Shown here in pieces: positions 12,990 through 14,553 of a DNA stretch of 20,972 nt. Below the pieces are notes generated by a model, which made no database searches, was not told the DNA's origin, and saw nothing but the letters and a program-made list of their open reading frames with translations. A program made the translations under genes and the position numbers. The first letter of the stretch is position 1; the number at the start of each line of letters is the position of its first letter. The DNA is from a virus, in the IMG/VR virus record IMGVR_UViG_3300035210_000098, positions 1 through 20,972 of that record; one strand, 5' to 3'.

Positions 12990-13240
12990 CCCTTCCTCCT
13001 CCTAAACCATCCATGAAACTTCATCGCACAGACAATCCCGATCGGCCCACCGGCCAGATACGCGCCCATCTCAGACGCGCAGGCATTCGGCACCATCTTA
13101 AACAGCATCAGGTTCGATGCTCCGATCATAAAGCTCGTAAAAAATGCTGCTGTATAGTGCCCGTTGTTCACATTCAGGCTTTGAAAGCCCAGGGCGAACA
13201 CGCAGAGGAATGAAGATGTAAAAAGTAAAAGTTCAGTCAT
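12986..13240 (-). CDS. Small phage membrane protein (about three TM segments)
   Basis: The 84-residue protein from ATG 13240 begins MTELLLFTSSFLCVFALGFQ and has hydrophobic spans at about 3-20, 27-47 and 56-75, with a basic tail (KFHGWFRRRKG). The segment FALGFQSLNVNNGHY and the following 'AYLAGGPIGIV' recall a family of conserved phage membrane proteins seen beside replication genes, as I recall. An in-frame ATG at 13258 exists. The 13240 start overlaps the methyltransferase stop as ATGA and has GGAGG 11 bases upstream, which fits this phage's coupling habit. Function unknown. A holin-like or anti-superinfection role is possible but there is no evidence for either. Confidence 0.8.
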   Translation of the reverse strand: MTELLLFTSSFLCVFALGFQSLNVNNGHYTAAFFTSFMIGASNLMLFKMVPNACASEMGAYLAGGPIGIVCAMKFHGWFRRRKG

Positions 13241-14346
13241 TTTGTTAATATCCTCCATGCTGCTGCCACCACTCGCGGAACTTGTCCATTTCCAATGGCT
13301 TTAAGTCTGTCCACCCGAGAGGCCACCCCATGAGCCACTCTACCCACGTCGGGTTCAACTGGCCAATCTCGCCATCCCGTTGTATCTGTTCCACTAGGTT
13401 GACTCCCCTCGGGTGTTCTTGTCTTTTCATGAAGGCTTCTGATCCGTCCGCATGTTGATTCCTGTAATCCCTGGCCGCCGGAGTAGGATAATATTTCACA
13501 TCTACTGGTAGGCCGCTTCGCGGATCGTTCGCTATCTGCCCCCTCTTCTCTGCATCGTTCGCTCGTGGAGTGGGCCAGATCTTCACCGCGCTGTGCAGCG
13601 TGTCCGGTTTGCCCTTGTGCATCCCGCTGTCGTATTCCGCCCGAGGAGTCGGCCACATCTTCACGGCCAGAGTCAAAGGCGGAGTGCTTACCTTGCCCTC
13701 GTTGTATCGCTTCATCCATGTTTCTTCGTTCTCGTCCGTGGTCTTCCCCGCCCTCGGTGTAGGCCACTGTTGCACAAACTCTTCCGGTGATGGAGTCCTG
13801 CCCTTGCCAAACCGTTCCGACCGTATCGCTTGCGTTGCTCTCGGTGTCCCGAGCCAAAATCCACACCCGTTTTCTTCTGTGCGGCGCTCCGGCATCATCA
13901 GCCCCAAGCTGGAGGGGTCGTCGAACGGTGTAACCAAGTCGCCGCAGGTCTCTGATGACCACGGGCAGGTAGCCGCGTATTCCGGGCACGTTTTCAAGCA
14001 GAACGAATCGTGGCCTGACAATCCGAATAACGTCTGCTGTGGCTGGCCACATGTTGCGTTCGTCGTCTGCTCCTTTTTGCTTTCCTGCAACACTGAAGGG
14101 CTGGCAGGGGAATCCTGCGGTAAGCACATCAACCATTCCCGTATAGCTTGCGGCGTACCCTTCACTAACGAATGCTCGGACATCGCCAAAGATTGGCGCG
14201 TAGTCGAGGATGCCGTCCTTGATCCTTTGCGCGAGGATTTTTTGGCAGTACCCGTCCCATTCGACGTAGCCGATATGCCGGAATCCGAGGAGCATGGTGC
14301 CGAGCACCCCGCCGCCTGCTCCTGTGAAGAGTGAGAGTTCATTCAA
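13237..14346 (-). CDS. C5 cytosine DNA methyltransferase
   Basis: The 369-residue protein methylates cytosine at C5. Motif I is LSLFTGAGGGVLG (residues 4-16), motif IV GFPCQPFSVAGKQ with catalytic Cys81, motif VI ENVPG (119-122), motif VIII APHRRKRVWIL (154-164) and motif IX/X RLKAIGNGQVPRVVAAAW. All needed motifs are present. The target-recognition stretch (about 168-340) is odd. It is polar, poor in hydrophobic residues and contains five recurring (V/L)A-D/H-S/T-like blocks, such as VADSSGGIRQRD and LAHSTSERCRE. This stretch is overlapped by a second ORF in another frame. The start is TTG at 14346, seven bases after GAGG. Motif I directly after the start supports it. The usual role would be protection from host restriction. 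Confidence 0.88.
   Translation of the reverse strand: MNELSLFTGAGGGVLGTMLLGFRHIGYVEWDGYCQKILAQRIKDGILDYAPIFGDVRAFVSEGYAASYTGMVDVLTAGFPCQPFSVAGKQKGADDERNMWPATADVIRIVRPRFVLLENVPGIRGYLPVVIRDLRRLGYTVRRPLQLGADDAGAPHRRKRVWILARDTESNASDTVGTVWQGQDSITGRVCATVAYTEGGEDHGRERRNMDEAIQRGQGKHSAFDSGREDVADSSGGIRQRDAQGQTGHAAQRGEDLAHSTSERCREEGADSERSAKRPTSRCEILSYSGGQGLQESTCGRIRSLHEKTRTPEGSQPSGTDTTGWRDWPVEPDVGRVAHGVASRVDRLKAIGNGQVPRVVAAAWRILTK
13245..14342 (-). CDS. Overlapping ORF with WPTPRA repeats, alternate frame of the methyltransferase
   Basis: A 365-codon ORF in the +1 frame relative to the methyltransferase starts with ATG at 14342, four bases after the TTG start, and ends eight bases before its stop. Recurrent motif blocks at residues 164 (LGTPRA), 193 (WPTPRA), 230 (WPTPRA), 256 (WPTPRA) and 285 (YPTPAA) are about 26-37 residues apart. 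The C-terminus has GQLNPTWVEWLMGWPLGWT followed by DLKPLEMDKF. From memory, that tail and the WPTPRA repeats are conserved in many annotated phage proteins of unknown function, which speaks for a real product. The N-terminal 50 residues are Ser-rich and weaker, so the true start may be ATG 14183 (MSEHSLVKG). I do not know its activity. Confidence 0.6.
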   Translation of the reverse strand: MNSHSSQEQAAGCSAPCSSDSGISATSNGTGTAKKSSRKGSRTASSTTRQSLAMSEHSLVKGTPQAIREWLMCLPQDSPASPSVLQESKKEQTTNATCGQPQQTLFGLSGHDSFCLKTCPEYAATCPWSSETCGDLVTPFDDPSSLGLMMPERRTEENGCGFWLGTPRATQAIRSERFGKGRTPSPEEFVQQWPTPRAGKTTDENEETWMKRYNEGKVSTPPLTLAVKMWPTPRAEYDSGMHKGKPDTLHSAVKIWPTPRANDAEKRGQIANDPRSGLPVDVKYYPTPAARDYRNQHADGSEAFMKRQEHPRGVNLVEQIQRDGEIGQLNPTWVEWLMGWPLGWTDLKPLEMDKFREWWQQHGGY

Positions 14347-14358
14347 ATCGCCATCCTC

Positions 14359-14553
14359 TTAAAACAACCTCGGATTTTGTTTCTCTGCTTCGCGTATCTT
14401 TTGCGCCCGTTCCTGCTTCTTGCTCATCCCGACCGGCGCATGCTCCATACACGTCCCCACGCGGCGATCACTCACCCGGTGCATGGTTCTGCGGTTGCAG
14501 GTATTGCACCATGCGGAAACGGCAACGGTATTTCTGGTCTCATGCTTTGACAT
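14359..14553 (-). CDS. 64-residue CxxC phage protein
   Basis: This small basic protein begins MSKHETRNTVAVSAWCNTCN. A CxxC pair (residues 16-19) and a later GTCMEH (residues 33-38) could hold a zinc ion (three Cys and one His). The C-terminal half is a charged helix that ends KQNPRLF. From memory, short proteins with this MSKHETRN start and NPRLF end recur in phages, function unknown. Its stop and the methyltransferase TTG are 12 bases apart in the same frame. A stem-loop directly precedes its start and holds the only plausible SD (GGGGGA). Confidence 0.75.
   Translation of the reverse strand: MSKHETRNTVAVSAWCNTCNRRTMHRVSDRRVGTCMEHAPVGMSKKQERAQKIREAEKQNPRLF

Follow-up and report, generated by a model that had tools for sequence, protein, structure and literature searches.

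The window (the whole stretch of viral DNA that was analysed, 20,972 nucleotides) has a phage neighbourhood comprising a Mu-like portal and head gene, a DnaB helicase, an SSB, an integrase and a resolvase, and no restriction gene was noticed among the subset of its ORFs that was searched. Two ORFs on the same strand, here called alpha and beta, have about 1.1 kb in common, beta being the +1 frame of alpha, with their starts 4 bases and their ends 8 bases apart (Table 1). The preliminary description of this DNA had reported this pair of 369 and 365 codons behind a single SD, and its coordinates were confirmed. The five TPRA-type blocks it had listed also start exactly where it had placed them (the upper coordinates of cassettes 1 to 5), opposite the alpha-frame blocks given in the same rows.

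Table 1. Features of the alpha/beta locus in the window, in the order of transcription.
Feature	Position	Strand	Description
SD-like AGAGGA	14354..14359	-	common to both starts; spacing 7 nt to TTG and 11 nt to ATG
Alpha	13237..14346	-	putative catalytic subunit of a C5-cytosine methyltransferase; 369 aa from a TTG; carries motifs I-VIII and X
Twin start TTGAATG	14340..14346	-	alpha TTG 14346, beta ATG 14342; the TGA between them closes the beta frame upstream
Beta	13245..14342	-	+1-frame ORF nested in alpha; 365 aa from an ATG; putative subunit for target recognition and motif IX
Alpha motif I (LFTGAGGG)	14308..14331	-	from translation
Alpha motif IV, catalytic PCQ	14101..14109	-	from translation; aligns with M.HhaI
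Beta N-terminal conserved domain	13854..14018	-	general form YDxxSxSWKTxQC...SxTWPxWGMxRxG (consensus); dual-coded with alpha motifs V-VIII
Beta cassette 1 (LGTPRATQAIRSERFGK)	13803..13853	-	alpha frame LARDTES
Beta cassette 2 (WPTPRAGKTTDENEETWMKRYNEGKVSTPPLTLAVKM)	13656..13766	-	alpha frame VAYTEGG; L007 has a near-identical copy, L008 and L010 similar ones
Beta cassette 3 (WPTPRAEYDSGMHKGKPDTLHSAVKI)	13578..13655	-	alpha frame VADSSGG
Beta cassette 4 (WPTPRANDAEKRGQIANDPRSGLPVDVKY)	13491..13577	-	alpha frame LAHSTSE; cassette type recurrent in many loci
Beta cassette 5 (YPTPAARDYRNQHADGSEAFMKRQEHPRGVNLVEQIQRDGEIG)	13362..13490	-	alpha frame LSYSGGQ; counterpart in L041 (Chlorobiota)
Beta motif IX candidate LNPTWVEWLMGWPLGWT	13308..13358	-	tail conservation (z 26, an inflated value); position in L104, L025 and L024
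Alpha motif X (AIGNGQVP)	13276..13299	-	from translation

The alpha frame carries motif I, the PCQ nucleophile (motif IV), ENV (motif VI) and motif VIII, the signature of a C5-cytosine methyltransferase. It aligns to M.HhaI over residues 4-167 and matches phrog_363 over its whole length, whereas its match to PF00145 of Pfam (E 4.7e-35) is limited to residues 2-173, covering motifs I-VIII and ending before motif IX. The earlier statement that this ORF has all C5 motifs was therefore slightly too generous, holding for motifs I-VIII and X. Neither motif IX nor a conserved target-recognition domain (TRD) was found in the alpha chain, as the Pfam match ends at residue 173 and the middle of the protein is conserved barely above the level forced by beta (see below). 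Unlike alpha, the canonical enzyme of Streptococcus phage CHPC1148 (L026) shows a second PF00145 stretch. A GN motif X was present in the alpha frame of 132 nested homologous loci, a count for which motif X in that frame was itself part of the criterion.

The twin start is conserved among homologous loci. Among loci in which the second residue of alpha is asparagine, 87 of 88 use the codon AAT, which creates the +1 ATG, compared with 451 of 1107 (41%) for the other asparagine codons of alpha. A beta-phase ATG was found at the twin-start place in 104 of 133 loci, including some in which alpha starts further upstream, and the stop directly before it is mostly TGA. This retention of both the ATG and the preceding stop fits independent initiation of beta 4 bases past the alpha start. 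In some loci (Paenibacillus phage Diva and Stenotrophomonas phage SOVA965), the +1 frame has stops in its N-terminal part, and beta must therefore start inside alpha there; a GAT/ATG near motif IV was considered as a universal internal start and dropped, as ATG occurs there at only 66 of 121 loci. Separately, a three-codon ORF (ATG GCG ATT TGA, 14343-14354 of the window) reaches into the end of the SD and directly adjoins the beta ATG in the same frame, where it could feed reinitiation.

Beyond a first stretch of about 100 residues, which may be only a leader, beta consists of an N-terminal conserved domain, cassettes of the general form (W/L)PTPxAxD and a tail of the form LNPxWVEWLMGxPxGW. 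Each locus has several cassette-like units, and cassettes recur between unrelated loci in differing number and order; their boundaries were set by a simple pattern and are approximate, and the single-linkage clusters used to compare them mix some types. Beta has no match in Pfam or NCBIfam. It does match two PHROG families, phrog_26627 of unknown function (E 5e-15) and phrog_1008 with the label 'DNA methyltransferase' (E 3e-28). Its tail is common to many proteins, in line with the earlier remark on it; the labels of these two families mention neither nesting nor a subunit role.

The alpha/beta arrangement is present in hundreds of other phages and bacteria. Homologous loci were chosen by similarity to the beta tail or to either protein and not by nesting, and the nested ones were then used for pairwise tests. 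In the search with the tail only, 132 of 156 loci have the equivalent frame exactly +1 inside an intact alpha, which answers the question raised at the outset, whether homologues of the second frame always overlap a methyltransferase, with nearly always; nesting was likewise found in 61 of 80 loci of a partly overlapping set. Species-level genomes gave 453 tail-bearing matches and viral contigs at least 578, with the nested architecture occurring in GTDB genomes of many phyla as well as in viral contigs. In the record of Paenibacillus phage Diva (L003:2480-3184), the depositors label the nested frame 'g49 internal gene', a hypothetical protein; in the annotation of other records just one of the two frames is retained. 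A prophage alpha in E. coli PCP07014 (L189:1517-2278) is annotated as a pseudogene and has an internal stop.

Several comparisons indicate selection on the second frame. None of 1000 synonymous shuffles that kept the alpha protein and its codon usage left the +1 frame as open as it is in the window, and most homologues behaved alike. Across 133 loci, the +1 frame has no stop in the stretch that begins 25 codons beyond motif IV and ends at the tail, against 341.5 expected, and 36 instead of 79.6 from motif I to 20 codons before motif IV. Amino acid identity of the beta tail was 0.443 versus 0.223 under alpha-preserving synonymous shuffles, with a z of 26 that is inflated by relatedness among the sequences, since shuffles ignore ancestry, which makes contrasts between regions the safer evidence. 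Such a contrast is seen in most divergent pairs, where z remains high in the tail and is near 0 at the N-terminus.

The sharpest contrast was found between motifs VIII and IX. Over this region of the 132 nested loci, pairs with less than 70% DNA identity show a protein identity of 0.454 in beta and 0.212 in alpha. In a subsample, the alpha-preserving null predicts 0.196 for beta, far below the observed value, whereas alpha at 0.217 hardly exceeds the 0.192 predicted by the beta-preserving null; even in pairs picked by alpha similarity, beta (0.546) is more conserved than alpha (0.373). Judged from these values, the alpha stretch between motifs VIII and X is close to a passive shadow of beta. 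They also bear out the earlier suggestion that the target-recognition stretch of the methyltransferase is shaped by the second frame. Selection on both frames, as first proposed, was upheld for the strongly selected second frame but not for the full length of the overlap: the first 100 or so residues of beta are almost unconstrained, as the middle of alpha nearly is on the other side.

Fourfold degenerate sites of alpha follow the same pattern. Between the window and its nearest relative (L007), 43% of these sites changed in alpha segment 4-105, and 11% in 106-170, 3% in 171-322 and 16% in 323-369, the three segments over which beta is functional; for L010, the values over the same four segments are 50, 29, 8 and 5%. 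Across pairs, the changed fraction was 0.43-0.68 over the first 100 or so residues of beta, against 0.03-0.08 where cassettes are shared and, in pairs with a retained tail, 0.05-0.23 over that tail. As expected, loci with other cassettes show no suppression of fourfold changes in the variable region relative to the window. In locus L012, the alpha frame breaks before the tail, and fourfold changes are not suppressed in the tail.

These results leave it extremely unlikely that the second frame is a shadow that alpha motifs and codon bias keep open and make look conserved. Over the N-terminal 100 or so codons, beta similarity in divergent homologues is indeed about what alpha forces. Such a shadow would not account for zero stops against 342 expected past motif IV, for beta exceeding alpha in conservation over the variable region, for the frozen synonymous sites, or for an enzyme that encodes the same protein content without overlap (L104, described below); on stops, conservation, fourfold sites and L104, the shadow model was ruled out for the cassette and tail regions. 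Over these regions we found neither a broken frame, nor a lack of amino acid constraint, nor matches confined to shadows, which the preliminary description had named as signs against a selected second frame. This comparative evidence marks beta as a frame that codes for protein, is under selection and keeps its start, and not as a shadow.

Two further observations concern unusual open frames. The canonical one-chain methyltransferase of Streptococcus phage CHPC1148 (L026, 1646-2071) contains a 141-codon open stretch in its +1 frame that was matched in 0 of 1000 synonymous shuffles, and +1 constraint may thus be more general among C5 methyltransferases of this family. On the + strand of the window, a 254-codon ORF (13570-14334) is open across the same gene, likely as a by-product of stop avoidance.

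The place of beta in the enzyme is suggested by homologues with other architectures. A 730-codon one-frame enzyme from an Actinomycetota MAG (L104) carries, in order, motifs I-VIII, a domain of the form SWRS...WPRSG, PTP cassettes, the tail and GNGQVP. Its domain downstream of motif VIII is of the type found at the N-terminus of beta and is encoded without overlap, and its motif IX-like tail (LNPDWVEWLMGWPVGW / LNPDWVEWLMGWPVGWT) lies between the PTP cassettes and motif X. The canonical one-chain family phrog_116 matches L104 over residues 3-693. In two further loci, mycobacteriophage Datway gp76/gp75 (L024) and a Paraburkholderia locus (L091), the enzyme is split end to end, and the second gene comprises cassettes, an LNP-type tail and motif X; phrog_116 also matches the C-terminal part of Datway gp75 (E 3.8e-8). 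In a Gordonia phage (L025), the IX-like tail LSPVFVEWMMGLPRGWV and motif X are both in the alpha (catalytic) frame. The order of elements in the one-frame and split homologues implies that the parts of beta stand where the TRD and motif IX would be; by content and position, beta corresponds to their motif VIII-X region.

Motif IX of M.HhaI (KLHPRECARVMGYPDSY) was compared with the beta tail LNPTWVEWLMGWPLGW. The hhalign program paired the tail with canonical motif IX every time, with E values of 0.65 and 0.83, or 0.011 with motif X included; as these scores alone are not significant, the assignment of the tail to motif IX is based on position and on the PHROG matches. Searches of PDB sequences with beta, a beta tail profile and a split-type profile returned nothing relevant. 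AlphaFold gave no usable fold for beta alone with 75 homologues (pLDDT 58). For the natural alpha-to-beta read-through ORF of L249, the catalytic domain was predicted confidently and the C-terminus with a pLDDT of about 30. Neither prediction lends support to the reading of beta as a part of the enzyme.

Taken together, alpha and beta very probably form a heterodimeric C5 methyltransferase, in which alpha would be the catalytic subunit with motifs I-VIII and X and beta would contribute target recognition and motif IX. Beta might instead be a real, selected protein overprinted on the methyltransferase and not a part of the enzyme, for example a regulator, an anti-restriction factor or a DNA-binding protein. 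Frame selection and a conserved start show only that a protein is made and not its role, and the motif IX similarity is not significant alone, but we consider such a separate protein unlikely: alpha without motif IX and a conserved TRD would need them from elsewhere, the same cassettes and tail stand between motifs VIII and X in the one-frame and end-to-end split homologues, and complete loci almost always have beta overlapping a methyltransferase.

A few loci read alpha straight into the cassettes and tail (L136, and L249 and L253 with a 14-G tract) or into the tail only (L224), as might be expected if ribosomal or transcriptional slippage joined the frames into one alpha-beta fusion in place of two subunits. 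This is very unlikely as a general explanation, because the SWKT domain of beta overlaps alpha motifs V-VIII and a fusion would lose one or the other, a beta-phase ATG right behind a TGA is conserved, and a common slippery site was not seen among the loci. As to the tracts themselves, the 14-base poly-G runs at the first cassette (L249:2506-2519 and L253:666-679) let alpha run into the cassettes and LNP tail and leave beta cut off; a tract length divisible by three would restore nesting, and the tract could reflect either an error of assembly or a phase-variable switch. In Mycobacterium phage Jarcob (L277, 1489-2659), gp69 ends just past GYDAQW, which resembles motif VII, and the +1-frame gp70 contains motif VIII, PTP cassettes, an IX-like tail and motif X, the frames having been merged by an indel.

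The closest precedent for a heterodimer of alpha and beta is M.EcoHK31I (YGGCCR), to which the pair was likened by description. According to Lee (1995), its small-subunit gene is reportedly nested in the large one in another frame, and such nesting of the second gene is found in the alpha/beta family as well. The division of motifs is also the same, as the large subunit of M.EcoHK31I has motifs I-VIII and X and motif IX is on a second, smaller polypeptide (PMC3404938). Its predicted TRD, however, was placed in the large subunit (PMC3404938), and by that measure alpha/beta are not of the same type; in the alpha/beta family, which is broad, the cassette region is conserved in beta and not in alpha, whose middle is reduced to a shadow. 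When the DNA of three relatives and of the tail was used to search 5426 E. coli genomes, M.EcoHK31I was not found, and only prophage relatives of the alpha/beta family were recovered, in four genomes. Given this precedent and the one-frame and split homologues, which place beta at the TRD and motif IX, the original view that the second frame has no described function and might modulate the methyltransferase was too weak.

Two other systems offer partial parallels. M.AquI consists of two polypeptides, the second of which has the distal variable region and motif IX (PMC3404938). Its small subunit also carries motif X, whereas in the window motif X stays in alpha, and the pair is not of the M.AquI type; the Paraburkholderia locus L091 and mycobacteriophage L024, whose second polypeptide has motif IX as well as motif X, are closer to it. 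Multispecific C5 methyltransferases of Bacillus phages (SPR, H2 and SPbeta type) have tandem target-recognition domains (PMC8936443). These enzymes are one chain in one frame, whereas in the window the other frame encodes the tandem cassettes, as part of a second polypeptide, with a recognition role suggested by their position. No description of a nested, cassette-bearing phage family was found in the literature searched, which was mostly that outside subscription journals.

Under the heterodimer model, one stretch of mRNA would code for both subunits, with a single SD guiding ribosomes to either TTG 14346 (alpha) or ATG 14342 (beta). Alpha would fold as the catalytic domain, with the AdoMet site, the PCQ nucleophile and motifs I-VIII and X but without motif IX. 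Beta would provide the domain dual-coded with motifs V-VIII, the (W/L)PTPxAxD cassettes as target-recognition modules and motif IX (LNPxWVEWLMGxPxGW). The alpha-beta complex would methylate one or several sequences, most simply protecting phage DNA against host restriction. In this model we infer translation of beta, its binding to alpha, target reading by each of the cassettes and a role in anti-restriction.

There is about an even chance that the locus stands for a class of C5 methyltransferases that is widespread in phages and prophages and has swappable target cassettes in a frame overlapping the catalytic subunit over 0.7-1.1 kb. In such a class, recombination would swap both frames at once, the catalytic middle would tolerate any shadow, the twin starts 4 bases apart would set a fixed proportion of subunits, and each beta would equip its enzyme with several methylation targets.

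The locus is a very long same-strand gene overlap in which selection on both frames is testable, and the arrangement is common. Gene callers often retain just one of the frames (alpha in ABMM1, beta in SOVA965), with the result that annotation covers only half of many such enzymes, which would then seem inactive or be assigned a wrong specificity. If the cassettes are target-recognition modules, the family would be a ready-made natural library for programming DNA methylation, as well as a system for studying how two frames divide labour, each being under selection where the other is free.
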